In this document: one piece after another, positions 8,034 through 26,743 of the stretch
How the letters are laid out: the number at the start of each line of letters is the position of its first letter
How positions within the stretch are numbered: position 1 is the stretch's first letter
Virus record (IMG/VR): IMGVR_UViG_3300043446_005016
Span: 1-35,517 of that record
Source: a virus
Length of the DNA: 35,517 nt
Reading direction: 5' to 3' (one strand)
Notes under the pieces: model-generated
Told to the model about the DNA's origin: nothing
What the model saw: only the letters and a program-made list of their open reading frames with translations
Database searches by the model: none
Program-made: the position numbers and the translations under genes

Positions 8034-8042
8034 AGGAATAAC

Positions 8043-9095
8043 ATGTCATTACTAGAAAAACTAAAGAAGAACACTACAATTAAAGAAACTGCAACGTTGT
8101 CGGAATCTAAATTTTTCAATAAGAAGGATATGATTCAGACACCTGTACCTATTCTGAATGTTGCCTTATCAGGTAGTATGTCAGGGGGATTGACTCCCGG
8201 ATTGACTGTCTTTGCAGGACCTTCGAAACATTTTAAAACTGCTTTTGCTTTGATGTTGGCAAAATCTTATCTGGACAAATATGATGATAGTGTTGTTTTA
8301 TTTTACGATTCTGAGTTTGGTAGTCCTCAATCTTATTTCGATAGCTTTGGTATTGACACTTCTCGAGTCATCCACACACCCATCACCGACATTGAACAGC
8401 TTAAGCACGACGCTATGGCTCAGCTTAGCAACATCAATCGGGGCGACCATATCATCATTATTGTTGACTCTGTAGGTAATCTGGCATCAAAAAAAGAAGT
8501 TGAAGATGCGATTGAAGGCAAGTCAGTTGCTGATATGTCTCGAGCAAAACAAATGAAGTCATTGTTTCGTATGATTACTCCTCACTTGACTATCAAAGAC
8601 ATTCCGATGGTTGTAGTCAATCATACTTACAAAGAGATTGGATTGTATCCGAAAGATGTTGTGTCGGGTGGTACAGGTGTATACTATTCAGCAGATAATA
8701 TCTTTATCATTGGGCGTCAACAAGAAAAAGATGGAACTGATCTGACAGGATACAATTTTATTATCAACGTCGAAAAGTCACGTTACGTGCGCGAGAAGTC
8801 AAAGCTAGCAGTTGAAGTATCGTTCGAAGGTGGTATTAGCAAATGGTCAGGATTGCTTGATATTGCACTTGAAGGTGGTTTTGTTACCAAACCCAGCAAT
8901 GGTTGGTATAGTCGTGCGGGTGAAGATAAAAAGTATCGCCTCGCGGATACTAGCAATAAAGATTTTTGGTTACCTATTGTCAGCAGCAAACAGTTCAATG
9001 ATTATGTTGAGTCGAAATATAAAGTATCTTCAAACAGTATTATGGGAGACATGAGCACAGCTGATATTGAAGGAGAATATGATGCAGTTGAGTGA
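8043..9095 (+). CDS. uvsX: UvsX-like RecA-family recombinase
   Basis: This 350-residue strand-exchange protein has the UvsX-type Walker A GPSKHFKT (residues 59-66), where classic RecA has GPESSGKT, and Walker B HIIIIVDSVGNL (about 136-147). The DNA-binding loop region contains VVVNHTYKEIG and VVSGGTG. It would form filaments on ssDNA and drive recombination-dependent replication together with the polymerase and helicase next to it. T4 UvsX has 391 residues; this one is shorter at the C terminus. It starts nine bases after the polymerase stop. Confidence 0.96.
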   Translation: MSLLEKLKKNTTIKETATLSESKFFNKKDMIQTPVPILNVALSGSMSGGLTPGLTVFAGPSKHFKTAFALMLAKSYLDKYDDSVVLFYDSEFGSPQSYFDSFGIDTSRVIHTPITDIEQLKHDAMAQLSNINRGDHIIIIVDSVGNLASKKEVEDAIEGKSVADMSRAKQMKSLFRMITPHLTIKDIPMVVVNHTYKEIGLYPKDVVSGGTGVYYSADNIFIIGRQQEKDGTDLTGYNFIINVEKSRYVREKSKLAVEVSFEGGISKWSGLLDIALEGGFVTKPSNGWYSRAGEDKKYRLADTSNKDFWLPIVSSKQFNDYVESKYKVSSNSIMGDMSTADIEGEYDAVE

Positions 9096-9366
9096 GCTTT
9101 ATCGCCCTTGGGCAGTTGACAACGCTCGATGGGGTATTGAAATCATACAAGGAAAGTTCAAGGATTCAGTTATTCAGATTGAAAGTGTGGAGTTTGCAGA
9201 GAACGATCCAAATAGTTTACAACTTGACTATCATACTATTAACATACCAGATGGATTGTTAAAAAATGACTATGATTCTCCTGAGTTTGTTGATACAATG
9301 CAATTGATTATATCTCACATACTTTCAGAAGCAATTCAAGATTATAAGGAAAATAATGGCGATTGA
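9082..9366 (+). CDS. Small acidic protein between uvsX and helicase genes
   Basis: This 94-residue protein starts at ATG 9082, six bases after AAGGAG; a second ATG at 9079 would add one Met. It overlaps the end of uvsX by 14 bases and the start of the helicase gene by 11. Sequence features are WAVDNARWGIEIIQGKF, DYHTINIPDGLL and a C-terminal helix. It sits where T4 has gene 40, but it has no membrane helix, so it is not an evident gp40. Function unknown. Confidence 0.82.
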   Translation: MQLSELYRPWAVDNARWGIEIIQGKFKDSVIQIESVEFAENDPNSLQLDYHTINIPDGLLKNDYDSPEFVDTMQLIISHILSEAIQDYKENNGD

Positions 9367-10726
9367 ACAAACTATTCTTTCGAATCTCATGTACAATGAA
9401 CAGTACATGAGAAAAGTATTTCCGTTTCTAAAAGAAGAATATTTCACTGAACACAACACCAAGATCATTTACAAACATATTTGTGAGTTTATCAACAAGT
9501 ATAACTCACTTCCTAACAAAGATGCACTTGAGATTGCCTTTCACAATGACAAAAACATACCAGAAGATAGTTATTCAGATATCATGTGTATGGTCAATGA
9601 TTTTGAAAAAGCAGATACTAATCTTGAATGGATAGTCAACGAGACAGAAAAGTATTGCAAAGATCGTGCTGTCTACAATGCTATTGTTACATCAATTAGT
9701 ATTCTTGATGGGCGAGACAAAGTTCATTCAAAGGATGGTATTCCAACACTTTTGCAAGAAGCATTAGGCGTTTGTTTTGATACATCTGTGGGACATGACT
9801 ATATTGATGATGCACTTAATCGTTATGAATTTTATAATCGTGTTGAAGATCGCATTCCATTTGACTTGCATCACTTCAATCTTATCACCAAAGATGGTTT
9901 GCCAAGAAAGACATTGAATATCGCCTTGGCAGGTACTGGTGTGGGTAAGTCATTGTTTATGTGTCATGTGGCGGCATCTTGTTTGCAACAGAACAAAAAT
10001 GTTTTGTACATCACATTAGAGATGGCTGAAGAACGTATCGCAGAAAGAATCGATGCTAATCTGATGGACACTCCGATTGATGAACTAAAGGACCTACCTA
10101 AGTCAACATTTGAAAATCGTGTGAGTAAGATTACTAACAAGACACAAGGCAAACTGATTATCAAAGAATATCCCACTGCATCAGCACATGTGGGTCACTT
10201 CAAGGCACTTCTGAATGAACTTAGTTTGAAGCGTAACTTCAAACCTGATATTATCTTTATTGACTATTTGAACATTTGTTCCAGTGCCCGATTCAAACCT
10301 AGTTCAAACGTAAATAGTTATACTATGGTCAAGGCGATTGCAGAAGAATTGCGAGGATTGGCAGTTGAGTATAATCTTCCTATCGTATCTGCAACACAAA
10401 CGACTCGAGGGGGATACGGCAATACAGATGTTGAATTGACTGATACATCAGAATCTTTCGGATTGCCTGCAACCGCTGACTTCATGTTTGCCTTGATTAG
10501 CACAGAAGAACTAGAAAAGATGGGTCAGTTGATGGTTAAGCAATTGAAGAATCGATACAATGACCCCTCACAATATAAAAGATTTATGATTGGTGTAGAT
10601 CGTTCAAAGATGAGATTGTATGATCTGGAAGAATCTGCTCAGAAAAATATCCATGATTCTGGTAGAATAGAAGTAGAAAGTATAACTAGGAAAGCAATTC
10701 GAGATTTTTCTGAAATAAGGATATAA
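9356..10726 (+). CDS. 41: Replicative DNA helicase, T4 gp41 (DnaB family)
   Basis: This 456-residue protein (T4 gp41: 475) has an N-terminal helical domain (to about 150) and a RecA-like motor. The motor has Walker A AGTGVGKS (192-199), the DnaB-type H1a segment YITLEMAEERIAERI, Walker B DIIFIDYLNI (about 295-304), and the H3/H4 segments SATQTTRGG and MKQLKNRYNDP-like (VKQLKNRYNDP). It unwinds the fork ahead of the polymerase and recruits the gp61-type primase encoded at 25724. Its last codon overlaps a late promoter for the next gene. Confidence 0.96.
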   Translation: MAIEQTILSNLMYNEQYMRKVFPFLKEEYFTEHNTKIIYKHICEFINKYNSLPNKDALEIAFHNDKNIPEDSYSDIMCMVNDFEKADTNLEWIVNETEKYCKDRAVYNAIVTSISILDGRDKVHSKDGIPTLLQEALGVCFDTSVGHDYIDDALNRYEFYNRVEDRIPFDLHHFNLITKDGLPRKTLNIALAGTGVGKSLFMCHVAASCLQQNKNVLYITLEMAEERIAERIDANLMDTPIDELKDLPKSTFENRVSKITNKTQGKLIIKEYPTASAHVGHFKALLNELSLKRNFKPDIIFIDYLNICSSARFKPSSNVNSYTMVKAIAEELRGLAVEYNLPIVSATQTTRGGYGNTDVELTDTSESFGLPATADFMFALISTEELEKMGQLMVKQLKNRYNDPSQYKRFMIGVDRSKMRLYDLEESAQKNIHDSGRIEVESITRKAIRDFSEIRI

Positions 10727-13302: not shown

Positions 13303-13311
13303 GGGCTTGAC

Positions 13312-13404
13312 ATGAATCGAGAAATACTTTATGATGTTATTTCTGCTTTCGGAATAGTTGGGTTTCCTGTGCTTGCACTTTTGGTATCTCAACTTTTCGA
13401 TTGA
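13312..13404 (+). CDS. Tiny hydrophobic protein (30 residues), tentative
   Basis: ATG at 13312 has AGGG eight bases upstream. The product is a short polar start, then FGIVGFPVLALLVSQLF, one membrane helix. The stop overlaps the -35 box of the next promoter. It fits the gap between two supported genes, but nothing else proves it is expressed. Confidence 0.38.
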   Translation: MNREILYDVISAFGIVGFPVLALLVSQLFD

Positions 13405-13429
13405 CATTCCGTTGTTTTTCTTCTATAAT
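13401..13429 (+). promoter_or_regulatory. Consensus sigma70 promoter
   Basis: TTGACA (13401-13406), 17 bases, TATAAT (13424-13429) is a perfect consensus promoter. TATAA of the -10 can also pair with TTATA at 13445-13449, next to the start codon of the following gene. That is a weak echo of the primase arrangement at 25698. Confidence 0.8.
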
Positions 13430-14128: not shown

Positions 14129-14152
14129 GGGCGCTTCGGCGCCCTTTTTTTT
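14129..14152 (+). terminator. Intrinsic terminator
   Basis: GGGCGC-TTCG-GCGCCC (14129-14144) is a perfect six-pair GC stem with a stable TTCG tetraloop, followed by eight T residues. It separates the early block from the late virion block. It is the only textbook intrinsic terminator I found in the window. Confidence 0.93.
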
Positions 14153-14156
14153 ATTT

Positions 14157-14164
14157 TATAAATA
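14157..14164 (+). promoter_or_regulatory. T4-type late promoter (TATAAATA)
   Basis: An exact consensus match five bases after the T tract of the terminator, ending 23 bases before the ATG at 14188. Terminator and promoter together form a clean early/late boundary. Confidence 0.78.
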
Positions 14165-14187
14165 TTAAAAAATATATCGGGGGCAAT

Positions 14188-15195
14188 ATGGGGTTATTCA
14201 AGGAATTTCTGCAAGAAGCTACTATCAGAGCTTCAGGTTCAGCAGCAAACGACCATGCTAAAAAGTATATTACACCTTATTTGCCTAAGGGTGAAAAGCA
14301 CACTACAGGGTCGCATACATTAGCAAAAGCTGTTCATGGGCATAGTGCAGGCACTGCAGTAACTTTAATTTCTCATACTGTCGAAGGTGATAAGCATTAT
14401 GTGACAGTTTCTGCTGGAAAAGATAAATTTAAAGTTCTTGCTAATAAACTTAACAAACCTGTTACAAAGGCTAACAGAGGATTCGAACAAGAAGCAAAAT
14501 TAGCTGACCATTTAAGGAAGCATGGATTGATGGAAGGTGAAGCAGCAGGGTTCACCGCAGGAAATGATTTCCACCTCATCGATAAACGTGGGCATAAAAA
14601 GAAAAAAATTCGCGGATCAGAAGGTTTTCATGCTGAAAAACACAAACTTTCAGAAGAAAAAGGCATTCAGGGAGAACATAAATCAGATATACGCACGACA
14701 GCATTCGGGCAAATAACAATTTCGCGTCACCCAAAGACACAAAAATGGTACATTAGTGACGAAGCAAGAGCGAAAAGACCAGAATACGCTGCTGCAGTAG
14801 AAAAAGCCACTGTAACCGTCGGTGGTAAAACTAAATCTTTACTGCAACATTTAAATGATACAGAACCCCCCGGCACATCAAATAAAACAGGGTTTCATTC
14901 TGATGAAACAACACTTCACCCGGCACATGCATACATGCGAGACCATCATGTGGATATAGTGCATATTGACTCGCATGGTACATATCGAGCAGGCATGAGC
15001 GAAACAAGAGACAGGCATAAATTGGGATTACCTGTGATGCAAGGTGTTGGTAGATTTAGGGTTCGTCAAAAACAAACTTATAATAACAACTCAAGAACAG
15101 CGCAATTTAGTATTAAAAAATTAGAAAAATCAGATATCAACATTGGTACAGATGAAGGCGCTATTGAAATGAAAAAACGTTTAGGTCATCAATAG
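14188..15195 (+). CDS. Putative head-targeted PD-(D/E)XK-like nuclease
   Basis: This protein has 335 residues. The start MGLFKEFLQEA resembles the T4 capsid-targeting peptide (MKTYQEFIAEA type), with L-Q-E/A as a possible gp21-type cleavage site. The middle has the order expected for a PD-(D/E)XK fold: helix FEQEAKLADHLRKHG (99-113), D127 in GNDFHLID, GEHKSD with E163 and K165, then FGQITIS (173-179). The C-terminal part is His-rich (DHHVDIVHIDSHGTYRAG). Driven by a late promoter, it could be packaged and injected to cut host or competitor DNA. The nuclease call is by motif spacing only. Confidence 0.8.
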   Translation: MGLFKEFLQEATIRASGSAANDHAKKYITPYLPKGEKHTTGSHTLAKAVHGHSAGTAVTLISHTVEGDKHYVTVSAGKDKFKVLANKLNKPVTKANRGFEQEAKLADHLRKHGLMEGEAAGFTAGNDFHLIDKRGHKKKKIRGSEGFHAEKHKLSEEKGIQGEHKSDIRTTAFGQITISRHPKTQKWYISDEARAKRPEYAAAVEKATVTVGGKTKSLLQHLNDTEPPGTSNKTGFHSDETTLHPAHAYMRDHHVDIVHIDSHGTYRAGMSETRDRHKLGLPVMQGVGRFRVRQKQTYNNNSRTAQFSIKKLEKSDINIGTDEGAIEMKKRLGHQ

Positions 15196-15247
15196 ATTTT
15201 CATCATTCCCAACAAAGCAATTTTACACACCTTGTCAATGCCTGTCA

Positions 15248-16006
15248 ATGCAATCTATTAAAGAGAAAAAACTATTAGTCAAGTTCGCTCAGTCAATGGG
15301 TCAACCTATAGATCCTGCTATTGTAGAAGAAGTGAAAAAATATGAAGAAATGCAAACTTCAGTCAAAGAGAGTGTGCGTTCAAATATTTTAGAGGATCTT
15401 AGGGAGTTATTTGATACAGCGGTAGAAAATAAGGTTACGACACTTGAACCAGCAAAAGAAGAAGTAAAGGTAGAAGAAGTTGTTGAGATTGTTGAGAAGG
15501 TTGTTGAACCTGTAAAAGAAGAAGTAAAGCAACCCTCATTGATTGAGAGATCTGCTGTTGCAATTGAAAAAGCTGAGAAAGCAAATGCAATAAAAGAAGA
15601 TTCATATCAGCAACCTTCAGTCCCCGCCCCTACCGACCTTAAGGCAGTAAAGGAAAAAATAAAGTTTCTTGAACAATGGCTTGCTAAAATATCTTTGACT
15701 GGTCCTGGTGGTGGTGCCGGATCAATTGAAACATTAGATCGTGCAACAAAAGTAGTCAGCACAAATTATACGTTTCAAAAAAGTGACTATTATGTGGGAG
15801 TCAATGCCTCGAACCCAGTAACTATTACTTTGCCATCAACAGCAAAGGCAGGTAGTATGATTGTGGTGAAGGATGAATCGGGCAATTGTTCAAACAACAA
15901 CATAACTTTAAGTGGAAACATAGATAACGATCCGGGAGGAGCTATTCTTGCAATCGACAATGGTGCCTTACAATTCATCTATAGAAGTGGCTGGAGAATA
16001 ATATGA
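15248..16006 (+). CDS. Structural protein with coiled-coil N terminus and fibre-like C domain
   Basis: The first 120 of 252 residues are Glu/Val/Lys-rich and probably coiled coil. From residue 160 a glycine-rich hinge (GPGGGAGS) leads into a beta domain, VVSTNYTFQKSDYYVGVN ... VTITLPS ... MIVVKDESGN ... GALQFIYRSGWRII. This domain is common in phage tail-fibre and baseplate-attached proteins. No Shine-Dalgarno precedes the ATG; the TGTCAATGC start region is repeated ten bases earlier in another frame. The stop overlaps the start of the next gene, so the two products may act together. Confidence 0.82.
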   Translation: MQSIKEKKLLVKFAQSMGQPIDPAIVEEVKKYEEMQTSVKESVRSNILEDLRELFDTAVENKVTTLEPAKEEVKVEEVVEIVEKVVEPVKEEVKQPSLIERSAVAIEKAEKANAIKEDSYQQPSVPAPTDLKAVKEKIKFLEQWLAKISLTGPGGGAGSIETLDRATKVVSTNYTFQKSDYYVGVNASNPVTITLPSTAKAGSMIVVKDESGNCSNNNITLSGNIDNDPGGAILAIDNGALQFIYRSGWRII

Positions 16007-17664
16007 CATATCTTTTTGTAAATGACCAAGAAATAAAAAATGATAGTGGTAACGCCATTTCTGTTACAGGAAATGTCGCTGTTTCCCAAATTACTTCTCC
16101 TTGGGTTGTAACAGGCAATGTAAATGCAAATGTCATTGGAACAGTGAGTGTTCAACCCTATGGTGCCTCATCGACTTCTGCTTTTGGTGAACCGTACGCT
16201 ATAACAATCACTCCCGTTATTCAACTTGATTCCATTTACGGTGTTACATCAGAAGTGATTCAAACTTACACTTCGGGCGCTAATGCATCGGCGGGGGCTA
16301 ATGTTACAACAGCAATGTGGGAAGTTCAAACCGGAACTTCTGTGGGTGGTTATGGTGTACTTAGAAGTAAAAGATTTTTAAGGTATCGTCCGGGGCAAGG
16401 TGCATTAGCAAGATTCACCGCTGCATTTACTACAGGTGTTGCAAATAGCACACAAAGGGCTGGACTGTTCAATCAAGAGAACGCAATTCAAATCGGATAT
16501 AATGGAACAACCTTCGGTGTGTTACGTGCAACTGGAGGAAAGGCACATAAAACTGTTTTAACTATCAACACAGCTCCCAATGCAACACAAACTGTCACCA
16601 TTACATTAAATAATGTCACATTTAGTTTTACGATAAACTCAGGAACAACTACACAAGCTGCTGCACAAATTGTTGCAATTAATAATTTTACTGGGTGGCT
16701 AATCGACCAAGTTGACAATACAGTTGTTTTCATGGCAGACAGTTTGGGACCCAAATCAGGCACTTTTAGTTTTTCAAGCACCGGAAATGCTACAGCAACC
16801 TTTTCAACAAAACAAGTGGGAGTCGCGCAAACAGAAAATTGGACCCCCCAATACGATTGGAATATTGATACTTTGGGGGTAACAGATCCTACAACAGGTC
16901 AAAGACATACAAGAAATCCCAGTGGTATGACTTTGGATCCCACAAAGTTAAACGTTTACCAGATCAATTTTCGATGGTTGGGTGTAGGTGAAATACGCTA
17001 CGCCATTGAAGATCAAACTACTGGAAACATGGTATTCTTTCATCGAGAACATTACACTAACCAAAATTTGTTGCCTCATACTGCACAACCTTCATTTAAA
17101 ATCGGATATGTTGCCTATAGTCTAGGGAGCACAACTAATGTAAAAGTTATCGGTGCTTCTTTGATGGGGGCAATAGAAGGAACCATTTTTCAGAATGAAT
17201 TAAATCGTTCTACAAGTACAAGTAAATCAACGTTAGCTCAAAATACACTTCACCACCTTCTAACTTTAAGAAATCCCTATGTTACAAATGGGGCAGCTAA
17301 TGCTCTCAATGGTGCTTATGTATTAAACGCTAAGGAATGCATACTAAAAAACATTAGTGTTGCTACCCAAGGAAACGACCCGGGCATGATTTACATTTTT
17401 TATGAGCCCACTAGCTTTTCGGGAACACATTTATACTATAGTCAACCAAAAGACAATGAAATGATTAGTACTGAAACCGGCACTTTAGACGCAACAACAG
17501 ACACTGCAATCACTAGATTTGTGACAGCAATTAACGGACAAGCATCCTACGATCTTGCATCATTTAGAATCGCTATACCTCCGGGTTCATATATTAGTAT
17601 AGGAATACAATCAACGTCACAGATAAGTAGAGTGTCTGTTGCATTAGTTTTCTCTGAGGATTAA
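16003..17664 (+). CDS. Large fibre-type or surface structural protein
   Basis: This 553-residue protein is almost entirely beta-type, rich in Thr, Ser, Asn, Val and Gly, with very few Cys. The N terminus (NDSGNAISVTGNVAVSQI) has short repeated VTGNV/TGNVN strands like a phage fibre shaft. From about residue 60 a globular part follows (FGEPYAITITPVIQLDSIYG, YRPGQGALARFTAAF). The style matches exposed virion proteins of aquatic phages and giant-phage fibres. It is translationally coupled (ATGA) to the 15248 gene. It is a likely host-contact protein. Confidence 0.84.
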   Translation: MTYLFVNDQEIKNDSGNAISVTGNVAVSQITSPWVVTGNVNANVIGTVSVQPYGASSTSAFGEPYAITITPVIQLDSIYGVTSEVIQTYTSGANASAGANVTTAMWEVQTGTSVGGYGVLRSKRFLRYRPGQGALARFTAAFTTGVANSTQRAGLFNQENAIQIGYNGTTFGVLRATGGKAHKTVLTINTAPNATQTVTITLNNVTFSFTINSGTTTQAAAQIVAINNFTGWLIDQVDNTVVFMADSLGPKSGTFSFSSTGNATATFSTKQVGVAQTENWTPQYDWNIDTLGVTDPTTGQRHTRNPSGMTLDPTKLNVYQINFRWLGVGEIRYAIEDQTTGNMVFFHREHYTNQNLLPHTAQPSFKIGYVAYSLGSTTNVKVIGASLMGAIEGTIFQNELNRSTSTSKSTLAQNTLHHLLTLRNPYVTNGAANALNGAYVLNAKECILKNISVATQGNDPGMIYIFYEPTSFSGTHLYYSQPKDNEMISTETGTLDATTDTAITRFVTAINGQASYDLASFRIAIPPGSYISIGIQSTSQISRVSVALVFSED

Positions 17665-17670
17665 TAAATA
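17663..17670 (+). promoter_or_regulatory. T4-type late promoter variant (AATAAATA)
   Basis: One mismatch from TATAAATA and a fit to NATAAATA, overlapping the stop codon of the fibre gene and ending 16 bases before the ATG at 17687. Confidence 0.5.
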
Positions 17671-17686
17671 AAAATAAAGGGTTAAG

Positions 17687-18835
17687 ATGTTTACACTAAA
17701 GGGTTATTTACAGGAAGCAAGAACAAAGACATCTGTTGACGCAGAGCTTTTGTCACATCTTACTCACGCTAAAGATCTGCCCCATGAACTTCCTGGTCCT
17801 GGACATGAACATGGTGTAAACTTAATACATGAATTCCACAAACTTCGTATGGGTCAACCCAGTTCAGTTGTTGCAACACATAAGGTAGATGGCGGTGCAT
17901 CTGTTGTGGTTGGGCATGATGAAAAAGGACCTTTCGTATCAGATAAACATCGTCATGCTCGAGGGGTAGTTGCACGTACTCCTGAAGAAGTAGATGAACA
18001 TTTTGGTCACGCTCCTGGATATGCAGCTGATATGAAAAATGTTCTTGAACATGCTCATCATATTGTGAACAAAGGACACACTGTACAGGGAGATTTGCTT
18101 TTTACCGAGCACAGTAAAGATCAAAGAAAAGGTCAGACGATTACTGCACACGCTAATCGTTTACAGTATAAGATAAAAACTCCTGCGAAGCTAGGAATCG
18201 CTGTTCATACAGAAATCACTAACGGAATAGCACATAAACCATCTGCTAAAGCTATAGCGCATAGCCCAGAAGTATTTAAACCAAACCTTGATTTTAATCC
18301 AAAGGAACATAAGTATTCTCCTCAAGATAGAAAAATGACTGAACAACATCTTGAAGCGGCTAAAAAACTTATCAAAGATAATCCTGATACCAGTCATTTA
18401 ACTGAAGAACATCAGACACAATTTACCACTTACATGAATCGTACTACTCGCAAAGGTACAAAACCTTCCATTGAAGGGTATAAAACACACTTGCTTGAAG
18501 AGGGTGCAAAGAAAGCCGCTACTGTCAAAACTGAAGCTGCTAAAGCTACACATATCAATAAGTTCAAAGCGATGGCACAACATGTTGATGACAATAAAGG
18601 AGCTTTTGAAAATACTTTAAAAATCAATCATCACTTGTCTCAAGCAACTGAGCATGTGCTAAAAGGCATCAAACATACCGATATGGATACCGCAATCGAC
18701 AATAAACCATCTGACACAGAAGGGGTTGTTCTTCTGAAAAAAGATGCTCAGCGTCGTTTAAGACCTGTTGCAAAGTTGGTTCCTAAAGAAGTTTCTCATC
18801 AGATTCTCAACAATCCTAGATTTGCGAAGGCATAA
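17687..18835 (+). CDS. Ligase-like nucleotidyltransferase (DUF6267-like) with head-targeting start
   Basis: This 382-residue protein starts MFTLKGYLQEA, a capsid-targeting-like peptide. KVDGG at 66-70 matches the KxDG active-site lysine motif of ATP-dependent DNA/RNA ligases and capping enzymes. QGDLLF (134-139) resembles motif III, EGVVLLKK (345-352) motif IV, and the nearby AKLVPK motif V. The order and spacing fit the covalent nucleotidyltransferase superfamily, with a His/Lys-rich helical insert between about 200 and 335. I recall the same core as DUF6267 in aquatic T4-type phages. The substrate is unknown; neighbouring genes suggest a virion-associated role. Confidence 0.82.
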   Translation: MFTLKGYLQEARTKTSVDAELLSHLTHAKDLPHELPGPGHEHGVNLIHEFHKLRMGQPSSVVATHKVDGGASVVVGHDEKGPFVSDKHRHARGVVARTPEEVDEHFGHAPGYAADMKNVLEHAHHIVNKGHTVQGDLLFTEHSKDQRKGQTITAHANRLQYKIKTPAKLGIAVHTEITNGIAHKPSAKAIAHSPEVFKPNLDFNPKEHKYSPQDRKMTEQHLEAAKKLIKDNPDTSHLTEEHQTQFTTYMNRTTRKGTKPSIEGYKTHLLEEGAKKAATVKTEAAKATHINKFKAMAQHVDDNKGAFENTLKINHHLSQATEHVLKGIKHTDMDTAIDNKPSDTEGVVLLKKDAQRRLRPVAKLVPKEVSHQILNNPRFAKA

Positions 18836-18836
18836 C

Positions 18837-20003
18837 ATGGCAGAAAAAACAACGGTATTTGCCTTTGGGCGCATGAATCCCCCAACAGTGGGGCATGAGA
18901 AACTTGTCAATAAAGTTAAAGAAATTGCTAAAGAGCACGGAGCAGAACATTTAATAGTGCTTTCTCATACACAAGATAAAATAACGAAAAGAAAAAAGGT
19001 AATTAAAAATCCTTTATCTCCGCAACAAAAGCTAAAACATGCAAAGAGATTTTTTCCCAAAACAAATTTAAAACTCTCATCAGAAGAGGCGCCTACTTTT
19101 CTACAACATGCACAAGAATTACACAAATCCGGAACGTCTCATTTGGTTATGGTAGCAGGTTCAGATAGAATTGACGAATACAAAAAGAAATTAAGTCATT
19201 ATAATGGTAGAGGAGAAGGTAAACTTTTTAACTTCAAATCAATGAAAGTTGTGTCTGCCGGAGAGCGTGATCCCGATGCAGAAGGCGTTGAAGGCATGTC
19301 AGCATCTAAGATGAGAGAACATGCTAAGAATAATAACTTTGATGAGTTTAAAAAAGGTGTTCCCGCCCATGTTCCAGAAAAACATGCAAAAGAACTTTTT
19401 AATGATGTGCGTCGAGGAATGCACTTAACTGAGAGTTTTGCAAATTGGGTTAAAGATGCTAGTGTTTTAGAAGAAAATAAATATAGGACGGCATCAGGTG
19501 CGTATGAGAAGAATCCAAGAAATAAGTCGGGTTTAAGTAAAAAATATTCCGGAAACTTGTCACATTCTACACAATTAGCAAGAAAATCTCACTGGAATAA
19601 AACGAGTAAAATGGCAGATAACAACCCTGCAGCATATACACCTGCTCCTGGAGACAAAGGCACAAAAACTAAAGAATCTGTTTACACCAAGAGGTATAGA
19701 GAAAGGTTCGGAGAAGAGGCTATGAAAATTCCATATTTGTTAATGAGCAATGAACAAAAAGTCGCCCTTCAAGAGAAGAATGGTGGGGCTGAACAGATTA
19801 CTTATTTGAACACCAAGACACAAAATTTCGATATGTGCCCCAAGGCGTATGATGCATTTAAAGCCCTTATAGGAACACAAGCAGGACCTGAGATGAAGAT
19901 GATGAGAACAACAAAGGAGCTGCATTCGGCAGTGTCAGCGGGTCTTGAAGCAAAACCAGATCGCCTTCGCCATATGCAATTTAAACAATACTTAGGACTT
20001 TAA
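18837..20003 (+). CDS. Cytidylyltransferase-like (HxGH superfamily) protein with virion-type C region
   Basis: This protein has 388 residues. FAFGRMNPPTVGHEKLV (8-24) is the (H/T)xGH nucleotide-binding loop, VAGSDRIDEY (106-115) the middle strand, and GMSASKMREHA (153-163) the ISxTxxR-like motif. Together they define the nucleotidyltransferase fold of cytidylyl- and NMN adenylyl-transferases. After residue 195 comes LTES, a possible gp21-type cleavage site, then a basic low-complexity region with YTPAPGDKGTKTK and YTKRYRERFGEE as seen in other phage virion proteins. An in-frame TTG upstream is rejected; the ATG follows the previous stop by one base. It is probably coupled with the ligase-like enzyme. 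Confidence 0.88.
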   Translation: MAEKTTVFAFGRMNPPTVGHEKLVNKVKEIAKEHGAEHLIVLSHTQDKITKRKKVIKNPLSPQQKLKHAKRFFPKTNLKLSSEEAPTFLQHAQELHKSGTSHLVMVAGSDRIDEYKKKLSHYNGRGEGKLFNFKSMKVVSAGERDPDAEGVEGMSASKMREHAKNNNFDEFKKGVPAHVPEKHAKELFNDVRRGMHLTESFANWVKDASVLEENKYRTASGAYEKNPRNKSGLSKKYSGNLSHSTQLARKSHWNKTSKMADNNPAAYTPAPGDKGTKTKESVYTKRYRERFGEEAMKIPYLLMSNEQKVALQEKNGGAEQITYLNTKTQNFDMCPKAYDAFKALIGTQAGPEMKMMRTTKELHSAVSAGLEAKPDRLRHMQFKQYLGL

Positions 20004-20004
20004 A

Positions 20005-20442
20005 ATGAAAGAACAATTAGTCAATCAGCTTAAAAAGACCCTTGCGGATGTTGTAACTTTTTATCTAAAAGCTCACAACTATCATTGGAATGTAGAAGGT
20101 CCTGATTTCAGCCAATACCATGAATTGTTTGGCGAACTTTACGGAGAAGTTTATGGGTCAGTAGACAGCATTGCAGAACTCATCAGAACCCTTGATGCTT
20201 ATGCACCAGGAACACTTGCTCGTTTAAAATCTCTATCTACGATTGTAGAAGATGATGATATTCCTTCTGCCCTAGAAATGGCAAGAAGACTTTATACAGA
20301 AAATGAAAAACTAATTCTTACTTTAATTACAACTTATAACATGGCTGAAGCTGAAAACGAATTTGGTGTATCTAATCACATTCAAGATAGAATAGAAGCA
20401 CATAAAAAGCATTCATGGATGCTTAGATCAACAGGAAAGTAA
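20005..20442 (+). CDS. dps: Dps-like ferritin family protein
   Basis: This 145-residue protein has KAHNYHWNVEGPDF (22-35) and a complete Dps ferroxidase set, H27, H39, D54 and E58. The spacing (12, 15, 4) equals that of E. coli Dps H51, H63, D78 and E82. Dps proteins form 12-subunit shells that oxidise Fe(II) with H2O2 and shield DNA. The length is a little short, lacking the long Lys-rich N-terminal tail that binds DNA in E. coli. It lies within the late virion block, starting one base after the previous stop, so it is made late and may enter or protect the packaged genome. Confidence 0.93.
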   Translation: MKEQLVNQLKKTLADVVTFYLKAHNYHWNVEGPDFSQYHELFGELYGEVYGSVDSIAELIRTLDAYAPGTLARLKSLSTIVEDDDIPSALEMARRLYTENEKLILTLITTYNMAEAENEFGVSNHIQDRIEAHKKHSWMLRSTGK

Positions 20443-20443
20443 A

Positions 20444-21595
20444 ATGGATACAGTTCTTCGACAAGATCTTATTGATATAGCCCTTAGGGCGACCGATTCG
20501 TATTTGGGTGTTGAAAAACACGCTATGAAAAATGGGTTTGCCACTAATCAAGACATACACGATTTTTCAATGTACTTGTCGAAAGCCCATGATGCTTTGA
20601 CACAATTGGGTGAAATTGATAAGCATTATGGTTATATGATAAATCATGTGAACACAATGATGAAACTTGCTAACCACGATGACAGCACACTCGCTGATCT
20701 TCCCTTTGTGCATGTACCCAAAGCCGATTTTGGTGATATTGAAGAAGAAACACAATTAGATGAGATAAGTCAACAAGTAAAACAAAGTTACACACAAAAA
20801 GCAAAAGAACAAGTGCGTCAGTTGAAGCCCTTTGCTAAGAAAGGTGAATATCGAGATTTAGCGAAAAACCTTATCAGACGCCGAGAAGCTGGAATAGCTA
20901 TGGCTGAAGAGGTCGAGACGCTTGATGAAGAAGCTGAAAAAGGTTTAGCTGCCAAAGCTGCTAAATCAGGCATCTCATTGGGAACCTTGAAAAAAGTTTA
21001 TGCTCGTGGAATGGCTGCTTGGAAAACAGGTCATCGTCCTGGCACTACTCCACAACAGTGGGGCATGGCACGTGTAAATTCCTACATCACTAAAGGTAAG
21101 ACATTTCACACCGCAGATAAAGATTTACACGAAGGCACTAAAAAAAAGACAAAGCAGGATGTAAATACTGATGAGTTAGAGCGTTTAGCGAATACGTTAT
21201 CTTGGGAAGATATTGCCGACACATACGAAAAAGAAGATTATGTCACCGAGGAAGTAGAACCTTTAGATGAAAAACTATCTGCTGCTGCAAGATTAAAAAA
21301 ACAAAGAGATTTTAGAAGAACAGGTGTAAAAAGAAATATTATTAGAGGTATGAGATTGCATCGAGTCTCATCTCCTGAGAGATTAAGACAAAGATCAATT
21401 GTTGCTGCAAGAAGATTATTATCAAAGAAATTTTTAAGAGGTCGTGACAAATCTCAATTATCACCTCAAGAAAAGGATCTGCTGGAACAACGTTTAAAGC
21501 GATTACAAGAGTTGGGTGTACAAGCAACTCTGGCTCAAAGATTAATGCCAAAGATTCGTAAAATAGAACAAGCAAGATTGAAACATAAAAAGTAA
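20444..21595 (+). CDS. Modular virion protein with DUF5824-like domain and LDE linkers
   Basis: This 383-residue protein has a helical N-terminal domain (1-95), then three acidic linkers ending in LDE: TQLDE (107), EEVETLDE (162), EEVEPLDE (276). Between the last two lies TLKKVYARGMAAWKTGHRPG (181-200) and QQWGMARVNSYITKG, the DUF5824 pattern. The C-terminal 100 residues are strongly basic (RLKKQRDFRRTG, RRLLSKKFLRG). L-x-E is the cleavage rule of T4 prohead protease gp21, so the protein may be cut into several head-internal peptides. No prohead protease gene is visible in this window. Confidence 0.85.
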   Translation: MDTVLRQDLIDIALRATDSYLGVEKHAMKNGFATNQDIHDFSMYLSKAHDALTQLGEIDKHYGYMINHVNTMMKLANHDDSTLADLPFVHVPKADFGDIEEETQLDEISQQVKQSYTQKAKEQVRQLKPFAKKGEYRDLAKNLIRRREAGIAMAEEVETLDEEAEKGLAAKAAKSGISLGTLKKVYARGMAAWKTGHRPGTTPQQWGMARVNSYITKGKTFHTADKDLHEGTKKKTKQDVNTDELERLANTLSWEDIADTYEKEDYVTEEVEPLDEKLSAAARLKKQRDFRRTGVKRNIIRGMRLHRVSSPERLRQRSIVAARRLLSKKFLRGRDKSQLSPQEKDLLEQRLKRLQELGVQATLAQRLMPKIRKIEQARLKHKK

Positions 21596-21602
21596 ATAAA
21601 TA
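21595..21602 (+). promoter_or_regulatory. T4-type late promoter variant (AATAAATA)
   Basis: It lies just after the stop of the 20444 gene and ends 20 bases before the ATG at 21623. It is a NATAAATA form; the position supports it more than the sequence alone. Confidence 0.48.
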
Positions 21603-21622
21603 ATGTAATAACCGAGGATCCT

Positions 21623-22546
21623 ATGAAAACTTTCAAACAATTCCAAGAAGAATTTTGCTGTGAAGAGTGTGATGACTCCCATTATGGCATTGTTGAGGAA
21701 GAATTTGAAGTTACAGGGAATGAACAATATGAGGATTGGGGTGAGCTTGATGAGGGTGAAGGTATTGTAACTCCTAGAAAAACAAGAGCATCGTTTTTAC
21801 CTCCTGCTCCGGGAACTTATGCGGCTGATTTAGCTGCAGGAAAATACGCTAAGTATGGCTTTACCAAATCAGGTAAAGAAACTGCTGCTGCAAAGCGTGA
21901 AAAAATAAGTAAGCAAAGTGTGGCAGAAGCCCGAGTTACCCAACTGCCAACTCAAGGTGCAGATTACAGTAAATACGACACAGACCATTTGAAAATGCTA
22001 CTGCGTCCAGGCATCCTACATCGCAATGAAGCAAGATTCAAAGCACTAATTCGTAAAGAATTACAAAAGCGTGAACAGCAAAGTCAGCAAAGTGTGGCGG
22101 AAGGTTCTCTACATGAAATGGATAATCGCACTCAAAGCAGTGATCGTAGAGAACAGCGTTACTATAGTTCAGAAGAAAAAGCGAAGCGTGAGAAAGAACA
22201 ACAGAAAAGATTAAAAAATCTAAGCCCTGAAATGCGTAAAAAATTACGTTTACCTGAACCTAAAGAAGAAGTAACAGAAGAAGCAGATAAATCTCGCGTT
22301 AAATTAGGCAAACCCTTTTTAACTCCTGGTGGTCCTAAGAAACGTGCTGTTTACGTTAAGAATGATAGAGGTAACGTTGTCAAAGTAAGTTTTGGTGATC
22401 CCAATCTTGAAATCAAGCGGGACAATCCCGAACGTAGAAAGAATTTTAGAGCAAGACACAATTGTGACCAACCTGGTCCTCGCTGGAAAGCTAAATATTG
22501 GTCCTGCAAGTACTGGTCAAAAACCCCCGTAAGTAAACTAGACTAA
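21623..22546 (+). CDS. Modular virion protein with capsid-targeting-like start
   Basis: This 307-residue protein starts MKTFKQFQEEF, very close to the T4 capsid-targeting consensus. It then has CCEECDD (possible metal site), GELDEGEG, and two modules ended by SVAEA (about 99-103) and SVAEG (about 155). The C-terminal 80 residues, KLGKPFLTPGGPKKRAVYVK to SFGDPNLEIKRDNPERRKNF and ARHNCDQPGPRWKAKYWSC, form a conserved basic domain found in many T4-type head proteins. The repeated V-A-E and L-D-E ends could be protease sites. Probably head-internal; the detailed role is unknown. Confidence 0.85.
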   Translation: MKTFKQFQEEFCCEECDDSHYGIVEEEFEVTGNEQYEDWGELDEGEGIVTPRKTRASFLPPAPGTYAADLAAGKYAKYGFTKSGKETAAAKREKISKQSVAEARVTQLPTQGADYSKYDTDHLKMLLRPGILHRNEARFKALIRKELQKREQQSQQSVAEGSLHEMDNRTQSSDRREQRYYSSEEKAKREKEQQKRLKNLSPEMRKKLRLPEPKEEVTEEADKSRVKLGKPFLTPGGPKKRAVYVKNDRGNVVKVSFGDPNLEIKRDNPERRKNFRARHNCDQPGPRWKAKYWSCKYWSKTPVSKLD

Positions 22547-22556
22547 GAGAGAAAAA

Positions 22557-23672
22557 ATGAGCAGACAATTATTCGAAGAGGCTAGAAAGGTCCTACAAGC
22601 TGAAGCAGCCGTTAAACTTGATCCGGTTGGACAAGAAGATAAAGACATTGACAATGATGGCGATTCAGATAGGACAGATTCTTATTTGAAAAAGCGTCGG
22701 GGTGCCATCAGTGCTGCTATCGCTAAATCAAAAAATGAAAGCAAAGAGCTTTCACAAGAAGATGCACAGCGCATTTCAGATATTCTCAAAGGTGTGGCGG
22801 AAGAAACAGAACAAGTCGATGAGATGAAAGGACAGGCAACTGTTCCCCCCAAAGGTCCCAAACCCGGAGAAGTTCCTGCCTACATGCGTAAGGGAAATGC
22901 TCGCCAAAAGTTTCCTATTGACTTAAAAGATCTGAAAAAGAATGAAGAAGTTGAACAGATTGATGAAGTTGGAGACACCCCAGCAGGTAAAGCTGCATTA
23001 AGAGCAGTGCAAGATCGAGCCTATGGAAAAATGGACGCTTGGAGCAAAAATCCCAAAAGTGGATATTCATCAACACCTAAGGAAGTTAAAAAGGCAACCA
23101 GTACTGCTGTTAGAGCAGGAAACAGATTGCAGGGATTTGGCCCTGACAAGTTAAATGCAAACACAGTAATGGCCCGTGATGCTCTGCGTAAGAAATTAGC
23201 CTCACAAGGAATTGGTGAAGAAGCTGAAGGAGTCGACAATGATCCTGTCTCAGAAATCATAGAAGCAAGGGATGCATTCACCATTGAACTTCCAGAAACT
23301 TTAACGTATCAGCATTATCTTAAAGCTGCTATGCAAGCAGAAGGCATTGAGTCATTAAGAGAACTAGATGACGAAATGCTTATGCCTTTCCTCGCAGTTG
23401 TTGAGGAATTGTTTATGGAAGGTGAGGAAGAATTTGTAATTTTAGAATTGTCATACAGTGAAATGCAAGATAAGATTTATATGCACCAGAGACAAGGAAA
23501 TAAAGTTACTGGTGTTGAGCGTAAGACAATGAATGGTCAACCCTACGCTGCTTACGTTGTGACTGACAAAAATGGAATGCGCCGTAAATACATATATCAG
23601 GGAAATGTGAGGCGTGTTCAAAATTTAGGTCAAACTACAAAACCTAACGAAACAAATCCATTAGAAGATTAA
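22557..23672 (+). CDS. Modular virion protein with EF-hand-like loop
   Basis: This 371-residue protein has an N-terminal SRQLFEEARKVLQAEAA and a Ca-binding type loop, DIDNDGDSDRTD (30-41), followed by YLKKRRGAISAAI. Linkers EQVDE (85-89) and EEVEQIDE (130-137) separate the next modules. A helical domain (VQDRAYGKMDAWSKNP onward) leads to an acidic region, and the C terminus holds a small beta domain (KTMNGQPYAAYVV, RRKYIYQGNVRRV). The EF-like loop and acidic linkers are shared with head proteins of aquatic T4-type phages. It is the next gene in the same late operon. Confidence 0.84.
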   Translation: MSRQLFEEARKVLQAEAAVKLDPVGQEDKDIDNDGDSDRTDSYLKKRRGAISAAIAKSKNESKELSQEDAQRISDILKGVAEETEQVDEMKGQATVPPKGPKPGEVPAYMRKGNARQKFPIDLKDLKKNEEVEQIDEVGDTPAGKAALRAVQDRAYGKMDAWSKNPKSGYSSTPKEVKKATSTAVRAGNRLQGFGPDKLNANTVMARDALRKKLASQGIGEEAEGVDNDPVSEIIEARDAFTIELPETLTYQHYLKAAMQAEGIESLRELDDEMLMPFLAVVEELFMEGEEEFVILELSYSEMQDKIYMHQRQGNKVTGVERKTMNGQPYAAYVVTDKNGMRRKYIYQGNVRRVQNLGQTTKPNETNPLED

Positions 23673-23683
23673 GGAGACATTAA

Positions 23684-24259
23684 ATGTCATCTTGGGGAAA
23701 ACTAGATAGCAAACAGTTAACTGGTAATGTTACAGTAACTTCTGGAAGCAAAGCGGTATCGAATGCATCAGGTAATGCAACACTTTTTTTAAGTGAAGTT
23801 AAACCCGGTGACTACTTTGTCTTTGGTCCAGTACAAGGTAACTCAACAGTTAAGTATTACGTTGCCAACGTTCTTTCAAATGTTTCATTGAATTTGACCA
23901 CCAATTACAGTGGTTCTACTTCAAGCGGAAAAGCAAACGTTCAACAGGGTCCAAAGTATGTTAATGTGGTTGAAAACGTTCGCGGGAATGCATATACCAT
24001 TCAGAAAATTTATGGTATTGATTCTAATGAAGCAGGCAATACCATGAATAAGGCAAACAACATCAATCAACCCGGTTGGGTTCATCAGATTGTTTGGACA
24101 GACGGATTCGGCACTCGCCGCGTTAAGACTGAAACATTGGTTGCAATGTCGAAGAACTTTAACCGTGACAATACCGCCAACGCATCCTTGTCACCCACAA
24201 CAGGCAATCTGCAAATCGACGCTGATGATGATGCTGCAATAAGAGACAATAATGCCTAA
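23684..24259 (+). CDS. Structural protein, probable neck/tail or decoration component
   Basis: The first 85 of 191 residues are beta repeats (LTGNVTVTSGSKAVSN, VKPGDYFVFGPV). Next comes a compact domain: YGIDSNEAGNTMNKANN, GWVHQIVWTDGFGTRRVKTE and LVAMSKNF. The tail has DADDDAAIRDNNA. AAGGAG precedes the ATG. Similar proteins lie beside tail and neck genes of aquatic T4-type phages; the exact place in the virion cannot be told from sequence. Confidence 0.82.
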   Translation: MSSWGKLDSKQLTGNVTVTSGSKAVSNASGNATLFLSEVKPGDYFVFGPVQGNSTVKYYVANVLSNVSLNLTTNYSGSTSSGKANVQQGPKYVNVVENVRGNAYTIQKIYGIDSNEAGNTMNKANNINQPGWVHQIVWTDGFGTRRVKTETLVAMSKNFNRDNTANASLSPTTGNLQIDADDDAAIRDNNA

Positions 24260-24521
24260 ACTTTCTGAGCAGACTGCCACAAATTCTGCTGTTTCTGCAG
24301 ATCAGCTATACATTGTAGCTAGCGGAAACAGCAGAAAAATTACTGCTGGCAATCTTATATCATCACTTACACAAGTAAAGACAGCACCTACAACCACTGT
24401 AGGTGCTTCTGGTGATAAGAAAGGTATGATTGCATTTGACTCCAATTACATTTACATTTGCACTGCCGACTATACTGGTTCGGCAAATGTATGGAAGAGG
24501 GTAACAATAAGCACTTGGTAA
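24252..24521 (+). CDS. Small structural protein with fibre-type C domain
   Basis: This 89-residue protein starts MPKLSEQTATNSAVSADQLY, followed by KITAGNLISSL. The second half (GDKKGMIAFDSNYIYICTA, then NVWKRVTISTW) is a beta module typical of tail-fibre tips and baseplate attachments. It overlaps the preceding gene by eight bases. It may be an adaptor or decoration protein for the 23684 product. Confidence 0.8.
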   Translation: MPKLSEQTATNSAVSADQLYIVASGNSRKITAGNLISSLTQVKTAPTTTVGASGDKKGMIAFDSNYIYICTADYTGSANVWKRVTISTW

Positions 24522-24522
24522 A

Positions 24523-24882
24523 ATGATATTTGAGTTGAATGAAGATAACTTTTTAATGTATGCCATAAAGAATTACGATAATCCGGCGTGTAAAGGATTG
24601 TCAGAATTCAATGAGGACATAAAAAGGTTTAAGTATTTAAAGCGCCTGTTTGGTAGATACCACGCAGGTAAAGGTTTAAAAGAAAGATTAATACTAAATC
24701 ATCTTATTGTAATTAGCAACTTGTTTGGTTCTGAAGCATCTGTTAAAATGTTGTTTTATAAAGTAGACAAAAAACATTGGTCAGCTCTAAAAACATTTTT
24801 GTTATTTCTAAACTTAATGCCCGAGAGTGAGTCAACTATACCAATAGATATGAACATAGCAGAAACTCTAAGAAGAATCTAA
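24523..24882 (+). CDS. Conserved T4-type protein (DUF7207-like)
   Basis: This 119-residue protein begins MIFELNEDNFLMYAIKNYDN, then FNEDIKRFKYLKRLFGRY and ERLILNHLIVISNLFG, ending in LLFLNLMPESE. This all-helical protein is highly conserved in T4-type phages of aquatic bacteria, next to structural genes; I recall the domain as DUF7207. No function is known. It starts one base after the previous stop, and its own stop overlaps the next ATG. Confidence 0.83.
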   Translation: MIFELNEDNFLMYAIKNYDNPACKGLSEFNEDIKRFKYLKRLFGRYHAGKGLKERLILNHLIVISNLFGSEASVKMLFYKVDKKHWSALKTFLLFLNLMPESESTIPIDMNIAETLRRI

Positions 24883-25433
24883 TGCCAAACCGCTTTATCG
24901 ACGCTGCAATTGTTTATCGCATTCTACGAATGCTAGTTACCCCCTTTGACAAAACAGATGCATATCGTTTAGGCATCATCGATGCAAAGGGTAAAATTTT
25001 AAAAAAGTCAAGTCAATTAAATACCGTTGAACAAAAAAATGCCTATACGCTTCTTCATCGTCTGGTGTTTCGTTTAAAACGAATCATTGAAAAGGTGCCA
25101 ATTGACAACAAAAAATTTCTTTCTTTTGCAGCGGCTTTAGCTTTGATACGCGAAAATTATGAAAAAGGAACAGAGCCGATTGAATTGGAAAGAATGTTTC
25201 TTGAGTCGTTAAAGCAACCCCATGATACGACTTTGGTTGAGCATTTTCTATCAGATAAATATATGAAATCTTTCAAGCAGTTTATGGAAGAAGATGGTGG
25301 AGTAGCTGCCAATAACGCTGCGGTGACGGGTGGTATAGCGGGTCTTCCTCCTGATGAACCTCCGGTACCGAAGATGAATAAACTTAACATGTTTAGAAGG
25401 AAGAGAAAAAATGAGCTTATGGGCCAATCTTAA
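24882..25433 (+). CDS. Conserved T4-type head-assembly candidate
   Basis: This 183-residue protein has a helical N-terminal domain (NRFIDAAIVYRILRMLVTPF, TDAYRLGIIDAKGK, AYTLLHRLVFRLKRIIEK) conserved in T4-type phages. From residue about 127 the sequence MKSFKQFMEED matches the capsid-targeting pattern but in the C-terminal part. It is followed by GGVAANNAAVTGGIAGLPP and PPVPK, a tail motif seen in many related phages. The domain order suggests a core or scaffold-associated role, but that is inference. Confidence 0.82.
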   Translation: MPNRFIDAAIVYRILRMLVTPFDKTDAYRLGIIDAKGKILKKSSQLNTVEQKNAYTLLHRLVFRLKRIIEKVPIDNKKFLSFAAALALIRENYEKGTEPIELERMFLESLKQPHDTTLVEHFLSDKYMKSFKQFMEEDGGVAANNAAVTGGIAGLPPDEPPVPKMNKLNMFRRKRKNELMGQS

Positions 25434-25674
25434 AAATTACTTTTTTGGTGTACCTTTGCCAAAAGCAGAAGCAGCTCCTGCACCTGCAGTGGTTGAAGCA
25501 CCCAAAGTCGAAGCGAAACAATTAGATTTGAAACTTGAAGAGGCAAAGCAAGAAGCTACTCTGACAGTTACACCTGCAACCGTTGATGTTGTTGTTTCAA
25601 CAAAACCCCCTGTTGTTGAGTCTGAAAAGAAAAAGGCTCCAGCAAAAAAACGCTCGCCAAAGAAAAAGTCGTAA
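25411..25674 (+). CDS. Small Ala/Pro/Lys-rich protein with basic tail
   Basis: This 87-residue protein starts MSLWANLKNYFFGVPLPKAE. The rest is low complexity: Ala/Pro/Val/Glu in the middle and KKKAPAKKRSPKKKS at the end. The basic tail resembles histone-like or nucleic-acid-condensing peptides. It overlaps the previous gene by 23 bases and has a good Shine-Dalgarno (GGAAGAG). As the last late gene here it could be a head-internal DNA-binding peptide; this is not proven. Confidence 0.75.
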   Translation: MSLWANLKNYFFGVPLPKAEAAPAPAVVEAPKVEAKQLDLKLEEAKQEATLTVTPATVDVVVSTKPPVVESEKKKAPAKKRSPKKKS

Positions 25675-25703
25675 TTGACAATCTGATTGTTATGTACTAT
25701 GAT
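25675..25703 (+). promoter_or_regulatory. Sigma70 promoter of the primase operon
   Basis: TTGACA (25675-25680), 17 bases, TATGAT (25698-25703). Transcription would start at about 25710, inside the loop of the hairpin listed next, so transcripts from here lack the 5' arm of that hairpin. Confidence 0.78.
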
Positions 25704-25726
25704 AGGTTTCAAGGAGGCCTATCATG
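25698..25726 (+). promoter_or_regulatory. Hairpin covering the primase start codon
   Basis: TATGATAGG (25698-25706) pairs with CCTATCATG (25718-25726): eight Watson-Crick pairs plus one G-U. The loop TTTCAAGGAGG holds the Shine-Dalgarno and the ATG is in the stem. RNA that reads through from the late genes could fold this way and block primase translation; RNA from the local promoter could not. T4 gene e shows the same logic with early and late reversed. Confidence 0.65.
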
Positions 25727-26743
25727 TCTTTGTATATTGATCTAAAGTATATCAACTTTATCGCAGGTCGACTTCCTTTATTCAAGAGGAAGTCGGATTA
25801 CCTTTTTAATTTTCGATGTACTATTTGTGGTGATTCTTCTAGTAAGAAAAACAAAGCGCGAGGATACTTCTATAAAGTAAACAATGATATGTTTATGAAG
25901 TGTCACAATTGTGGAGTGTCGATTCACTTTGGAACATTTCTTAAACAGACAGATCAAATACTTTATTCACAGTATGCATTAGAAAGATATGCGGATGGTG
26001 CGGCTCCAAATAAAGCACATAAAGATCCTCAACTAACTTTTGTTGAACCGGTTGTCGAAAAGAAAACGTTGCTTGATGAGATCATGGATCGGGTTGATGG
26101 ATTACCTGTAGATCATATTGCAAGAAAGTTTTGTGATAGTCGCTTGATACCTGAAGATAAGTTAAAAAACTTATATTTTATCGACAATATCAAAAAGGTT
26201 GAACAGCTTTCTGATAAAATGATAGATCGTATACAAGGAAAGGAACCTCGCCTTGTTATTCCTTTGTATGATGATAAATTACAACTGGCAGGCATTACAT
26301 GTCGGGCATTGGGAAATGAAAGTTTACGATATATAACAGTCAAAATTAAATCTGATGCATTGCTGGTGTTTGGACGTGAATCTCTAAATTCGAAGAAGCA
26401 TATATATGTCACAGAAGGACCTATCGACAGTTTGTTTTTGCCTAACGCTATTGCCGTAGTCGGCACAGGGTTTAACAAACTTGAACTGCTTGAGTATTCA
26501 AAAGATAATATGACTATCATTGTTGACAATCAACCGAGAAACAAAGAAGTTTGTAACGTGATAGAAAATTTGATAGAAAAAGATTATGCAATTGTGATCT
26601 GGCCTCAGTCACTCAAAGAAAAAGATATTAATGATATGGTGAAGGCAGGTAAGTCGCTTGCATCAGTCAAGGCATTGGTAGATAAACACACATGCCGCGG
26701 CTTGCAAGCACGAGCTAACTTCTATGCTTGGAAGAGGTGCTAA
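25724..26743 (+). CDS. 61: DNA primase, T4 gp61-like
   Basis: This 339-residue protein (T4 gp61: 342) has an N-terminal zinc ribbon, C32, C35, C60 and C63 (CTICG, CHNCG), that recognises the priming site. The TOPRIM core is YVTEGPIDSLF (Glu near 228) and TIIVDNQPRNK (acidic metal site). It makes short RNA primers for lagging-strand synthesis and partners with the gp41-type helicase at 9356. It is separated from that gene by about 15 kb, unlike in T4 where 41 and 61 are close. Start and expression are discussed under the hairpin. Confidence 0.96.
   Translation: MSLYIDLKYINFIAGRLPLFKRKSDYLFNFRCTICGDSSSKKNKARGYFYKVNNDMFMKCHNCGVSIHFGTFLKQTDQILYSQYALERYADGAAPNKAHKDPQLTFVEPVVEKKTLLDEIMDRVDGLPVDHIARKFCDSRLIPEDKLKNLYFIDNIKKVEQLSDKMIDRIQGKEPRLVIPLYDDKLQLAGITCRALGNESLRYITVKIKSDALLVFGRESLNSKKHIYVTEGPIDSLFLPNAIAVVGTGFNKLELLEYSKDNMTIIVDNQPRNKEVCNVIENLIEKDYAIVIWPQSLKEKDINDMVKAGKSLASVKALVDKHTCRGLQARANFYAWKRC

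Follow-up and report, generated by a model that had tools for sequence, protein, structure and literature searches.

The primase gene of a 35.5-kb virus record carrying T4-like genes (the window, meaning the whole stretch of 35,517 nucleotides that was analysed) begins within an RNA hairpin whose 5′ arm is embedded in the gene's own promoter, and we consider it probable, at roughly three chances in four, that this element is a barrier to read-through RNA. The hairpin, the promoter match, its conservation, the geometry and the specificity for primase were computed, and from these we infer the transcription start site, late read-through and the block to translation. In the proposed mechanism, a polymerase arriving from the late virion genes would transcribe both arms, the RNA would fold, and ribosomes would be blocked at the primase start. 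Initiation at the local sigma70-type promoter, whose +1 is predicted to be 25710, would skip the 5′ arm and leave the start open, such that the gene's own early/middle promoter would be the sole source of primase. In several sister lineages, a hairpin followed by a T tract would probably halt the read-through RNA outright. Selection of the hairpin as an RNA structure is well supported. Absence of the 5′ arm from the local RNA is predicted from promoter geometry, poor translation of the long RNA is predicted from opening energies, and the purpose would be to silence primase late. A sequence-only reading of the window had interpreted the hairpin as a read-through lock, an interpretation that these predictions support.

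Gene layout and predicted folding at the primase start

The primase gene is followed by genes for thymidylate synthase and two ribonucleotide reductase subunits, and is preceded by a block of virion-type genes (Table 1). In T4-like cyanophages, g61 is described as an early/middle gene (PMC5082946, in part). The upstream gene's stop codon ends at 25674, and the primase −35 box begins at the very next base, 25675. TTGACA-N17-TATGAT has four matches in the window, compared with 0.25 expected, and the primase promoter is one of them. This local promoter is of the sigma70 type, and the T4-late-promoter-like TATAAATA is absent within 45 nt of the primase start. Elsewhere in the window, two near-perfect sigma70-type promoters (13307-13335 and 13401-13429), 94 bases apart, precede gene 13449.

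Table 1. Positions of features in the window, and hairpin arms of five related lineages.
Feature	Position	Strand	Sequence	Basis or remark
DNA polymerase, UvsX, helicase	5538-10726			
Strong intrinsic terminator	14129..14152	+	GGGCGCTTCGGCGCCC + T8	opens late block
T4-late-promoter-like box	14157..14164	+	TATAAATA	31 bases before start of gene 14188
Upstream block, virion-type genes	14188..25674	+		homology (virion structural, head, tail matches)
Possible late-promoter box	17663..17670	+	AATAAATA	upstream of gene 17687
Possible late-promoter box	21595..21602	+	AATAAATA	upstream of gene 21623
Last gene of upstream block, 87 aa	25411..25674	+		without family match
−35 box of primase promoter	25675..25680	+	TTGACA	
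−10 box of primase promoter	25698..25703	+	TATGAT	17-nt spacer; doubles as outer half of hairpin 5′ arm
Hairpin 5′ arm	25698..25710	+		predicted fold
Predicted local transcription start	25710..25711	+		from promoter geometry; 7-8 bases past −10 box
Shine-Dalgarno (SD)	25711..25717	+	AAGGAGG	first three bases form loop, last four paired
Hairpin 3′ arm	25714..25726	+		predicted fold; holds part of SD and whole ATG
Primase gene, 339 aa	25724..26743	+		phrog_47 DNA primase (3.4e-62); T4 gp61-like
L210 arms			TATAATAGTC/GACTATTATG	
L209 arms			TATACTT/AGGAGTATA	
L212 arms			CATGGTTTA/TAAACCATG	
L369 arms			TATAATAAGACTC/GAGTCTTATTGTG	GTG start
L398 arms			TATAATAAGGCT/AGCCTTGTTATG	

Homology, together with TATAAATA-like boxes, suggests that the genes upstream of primase are late. 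NATAAATA boxes lie upstream of genes 10755, 17687 and 21623; such late-promoter-like boxes are suggestive only, because TATAAATA occurs in the window no more often than chance alone would give (2 compared with 2.19 expected). Terminator scans of the + strand of the upstream block before 25698 revealed weak terminator-like sites only, such as 23388-23408 within a gene, and we infer from this that late RNA likely enters primase. At the head of the block (14129-14188), a textbook terminator, TATAAATA within 5 bases and the next gene make a clean early-to-late boundary. Three proteins of the virion region (18768-20003, 20444-21595 and 22557-23672) match cytidylyltransferase-type families (PF01467, phrog_3041 and phrog_764).

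The predicted fold of 25698-25726 has 13 pairs and an AAG loop (25711-25713), with an energy of −14.5 kcal/mol. Nine of these pairs (25698-25706 with 25718-25726), proposed earlier from the sequence alone, were confirmed as eight Watson-Crick pairs and one G.U pair, and the ATG was found, as claimed, to lie inside the pairing. The SD had been thought to be free in an 11-nt loop; this is not the case, as four pairs beyond the nine close the loop and leave the SD largely paired. Opening the primase start region in long RNA would cost 14.5 kcal/mol, the highest value among 36 gene starts in the window (next highest 9.7; median 4.05). When the −35 box, −10 box, SD and start were held fixed, the number of pairs spanning +1 in the window was reached in 2% of 200 shuffles. 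A plain dinucleotide shuffle of 58 nt gave z = −2.0, with 5 of 150 shuffles as low; because this z is only −2.0, the window alone is weak evidence and the comparative data carry the case. Rfam covariance models run over 25000-26500 gave no match at the hairpin and one weak, chance-level match elsewhere. A second hairpin, of 12 pairs within primase codons (25768-25796), was considered as an attenuator and rejected; it is strong in the window, L207 and L208 but weak in L002 (−5.1) and L003 (−9.5), and is therefore probably a coding coincidence.

Overlap of the 5′ arm with the −10 box, also part of the sequence-only reading, was borne out, with 12 of the 13 arm bases belonging to the −10 box and discriminator. 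If transcription starts 7 bases past the −10 box, +1 would be C25710, and the same number of arm bases would lie upstream of it, hence outside the local RNA predicted from promoter match and geometry. That RNA would start with CAAGGAGGCCUAUCAUG and have a leader of 14 bases, and would escape the barrier because it is without the 5′ arm. Folding of both transcript forms agreed with the difference anticipated between them: the predicted cost of opening the region from SD to AUG was 14.6 kcal/mol for read-through RNA compared with 7.3 kcal/mol for local RNA, at which value the window's local RNA is still partly closed. Read-through RNA was the costlier to open in 27 of the 28 loci for which both were computed.

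Conservation of the hairpin in related phages

Five other IMG/VR contigs contain the exact 29 nt of the hairpin, in each case immediately ahead of a primase ATG. Primases of the compared relatives with this 29-mer are 83, 76 and 72% identical to that of the window. The 72% relative, L085, has TTGCAT as its −35 box; by eye, its spacer agrees with that of the window at only 8 of 17 bases, whereas the hairpin agrees at all 29. A further contig, with a primase 85% identical, has three inner positions changed and the nine-pair arms kept. Among lineages at 50-69% identity, the arrangement is kept and the letters are changed (Table 1).

To be credible, the pairing should persist in relatives along with the gene, and within the clade around the window this was observed. 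Of the 49 loci of this clade, taken as the tail of a midpoint-rooted FastTree order, 43 have a hairpin with an energy of −8 or lower, half or more of the 5′ arm upstream of +1, and the 3′ arm on the SD, start or T tract. The same criteria are satisfied by 42 of 392 shuffles (10.7%) in which promoter boxes, SD and start were kept; P values from this comparison overstate the case, because the criteria and the clade boundary were fixed after the hairpins were viewed and the loci are related. Three of the six misses (L004, L417 and L425) seem to be without a strong hairpin, and three (L212, L386 and L392) have a hairpin there but fail on the called promoter or on thresholds. Viewed within the clade, L004 is without a hairpin, and L417, L422, L425 and L409 look different or weak.

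Under a relaxed test, a hairpin spanning the transcription start was detected at 44 of the 49 primase promoters compared with 6 of 76 other sigma70-type promoters from four related phage records, and the mean number of pairs spanning +1 was 10.5 compared with 5.1. The control promoters came from 80 matches: one was the L213 primase promoter, and 76 of the 79 others were used, with three minority-strand matches excluded. They replaced an earlier control set inside the short loci, which had only 14 promoters.

Over a wider range of primases, 30 clusters averaged 8.63 pairs spanning +1, compared with a null of 5.63 ± 0.59 and a maximum of 7.51 over 200; marine cyanophage-like and pelagiphage-like primases, which have very short leaders, add little to this excess. 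For this set, 159 starts were reduced to 115 distinct ones, and L052, L210, L211 and L248-L250 were dropped (match start not at an ATG). L210, L211 and L248 were put back to give 118 rows, 95 of which scored 10.6 or more for the promoter, in 30 clusters. Adding 71 hand-picked loci (17 of 79 and 54 of 80 from two lists) gave 180 distinct upstream regions. The wider relatives, marine cyanophage-like and pelagiphage-like, are mostly without the hairpin, which is therefore not essential to primase control in general. Among named phages, Melnitz, Mosig, P-RSM4 and S-SZBM1 have no such lock at primase. Separately, the cultured cyanophage Synechococcus phage S-CREM2 (L445, ~1436-1500) has a strong GC-rich hairpin with the end TCTCTTT directly before its primase ATG. 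In L062 and L068, the −35 box plus the next base (TTGACAT) can pair with the start ATGTCA, and long stems result in promoters with very short leaders.

Compensatory changes, a proposed check on the pairing, were present in relatives. Five distinct 29-nt versions were aligned without gaps, and four pairs changed on both sides. Covariation in this alignment, which consists of five hand-picked rows of equal length including L299 from outside the clade, was 0.400; shuffled rows gave 0.222, with 1 of 500 reaching the observed score, and sliding the partner gave no more than 0.169. Across 39 distinct sequences, four or more standard pair types occur at every 5′-arm position from −6 to +2, with G.U accounting for 66 of 523 pairs. 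When 21 sister hairpins were aligned with MAFFT, the result was out of structural register and was not counted. A search of viral contigs with the pattern ATGATAGG-N5-20-CCTATCAT returned at least 120 stretches, mostly chance among the matches listed, and was set aside.

Terminator-like forms and alternative explanations

In L213, L217, L221, L228-L247, L374, L388, L391, L405-L408, L413, L414, L416 and others, the hairpin has a T5-T8 tract behind it and resembles an intrinsic terminator. In the T-tract lineages that were checked, the 5′ arm begins in or just past the −10 box, and their local RNA would be without part or all of it. A terminator downstream of the promoter core cannot shield the promoter but can stop a long RNA, and for this reason we read the lock and terminator forms alike as read-through barriers. 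It is also conceivable, though unlikely, that the hairpin is the 3′ end of the late RNA, a weak or factor-assisted terminator that overlaps the promoter through tight packing and blocks ribosomes only incidentally. The sister lineages, with hairpin and T tract at the same place, are consistent with this, and a pattern scan lists 25698-25726 as terminator-like. However, an intrinsic-terminator test on the window detected no T tract directly after the stem; the tail is TCTTTGTAT in the window, and TCTTTGTAT or TCGTTATAC in its group, without a T run. Many lineages, including L210, L369, L368, L398 and L212, likewise have the lock geometry without a T tract, and in the window group the pairing covers the SD and ATG exactly.

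Alternatively, the inverted repeat could be a DNA operator, with a repressor covering the −10 box and start site. The palindrome does span the −10/+1 region, and L006, L007, L293 and L296 have one with the −10 box at its centre. We nevertheless consider an operator improbable. No second copy of the palindrome was found in five records searched whole (the window and four relatives, all fragments), nor was more than a single copy found in each of the four contigs, also fragments, with the −10-centred version; repeats of the regulon type were not found. Letters vary freely between relatives while pairing is kept, with G.U pairs among those counted above, and T tracts follow the hairpin in sister lineages. 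The other sigma70-type promoters of the four related phages are, moreover, mostly without a hairpin. The −10-centred palindromes themselves (AATGTA...TACATT, centred exactly on the −10 box) have no overlap with a ribosome-binding site and no clear T tract, and are candidates for an operator or a late-T terminator.

Slightly less probable again is that the hairpin serves as a binding site or switch, responding to a translational repressor or to temperature, in whatever RNA contains it, rather than as a simple read-through block. Hairpins at T4 starts can be protein targets, as for the gp43 operator (PMC3014915, in part), and the 29-mer is letter-perfect in the five other contigs, with primases down to 72% identical. 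Loop and stem letters are, however, wholly different in neighbouring lineages, no Rfam family matches the hairpin, and the local transcript as predicted does not include the 5′ arm. Finally, chance complementarity, in which −10 boxes (TATRAT) resemble the complement of starts (ATTATG/ATCATG) and so partly force the outer stem, is disfavoured to the point of being very improbable, as 43 of 49 loci compare with the 10.7% of element-preserving shuffles that pass, the inner stem co-varies although it is outside all fixed elements, and of 76 other promoters sharing this −10 box only 6 pass the relaxed test.

Significance and comparison with known systems

The evidence for a read-through barrier bears on a broader proposal, which we consider about as likely as not: that an uncultured group of T4-like phages guards primase by a promoter-embedded RNA barrier of fast-evolving sequence, with two outputs (ribosome block or termination) at one fixed site, turning an early replication gene off in late RNA, opposite to the T4 rule. 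If this is true, late primase production would be costly to these phages, and the question arises why primase, among the replication genes, needs late shut-off. A compact rule would follow, by which packed phage genomes shield early genes against late transcription and use no extra space for it, the promoter itself supplying one of the lock's arms. An exchange of ribosome block for terminator at a single site would be a clear case in which RNA structure persists through changes of sequence and output. With the wide comparative set, a lock working in the opposite direction is directly testable with reporters. No description of a primase element of this kind was found in searches of open-access papers. 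The logic of a read-through lock is already known from T4 e, I-TevI and Bacillus subtilis sigG, and shutting an early/middle gene in late RNA appears to be the reverse of T4. A related principle operates in the IS10/IS50 transposases, in which RNA from an external promoter folds and hides the start; there it protects a mobile element against chance insertion and is not a phage time switch.

In T4, the SD and/or AUG of e, soc, 49 and I-TevI are sequestered in longer RNA, and the local promoter lies in the 5′ strand of the hairpin, such that its RNA is without that strand (PMC3014915 and PMC2988022, each in part). An e-type hairpin cuts synthesis ~100-fold (PMC3014915, in part), and the T4 genes so controlled are described as all being late genes carried on early and middle RNA (PMC2988022, in part). 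The primase of the window resembles gene e in that its SD and AUG are predicted to lie in a stable helix in the long RNA. The sequence-only reading had called gene e a mirror-image design; this holds for timing but not for the predicted geometry, which is the same as in gene e. In T4 both the local promoter and the gene are late, whereas here the promoter is of the sigma70 type and the gene early/middle; what T4 silences is a late gene in early RNA, and what would be silenced here is an early/middle replication gene in late RNA. The primase hairpin also differs from the e type in having a terminator-like version in sister lineages.

For B. subtilis sigG, read-through RNA from PspoIIG is proposed to be kept from translation by a hairpin that RNA from PsigG cannot form (PMC5942855, in part), one confined to read-through RNA as proposed here for primase. 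In contrast to primase, sigG is a cellular developmental gene with a long hairpin of 20 or more pairs, and turnover into terminators between lineages, seen at the primase hairpin, is not noted for sigG in the excerpted account (PMC5942855).
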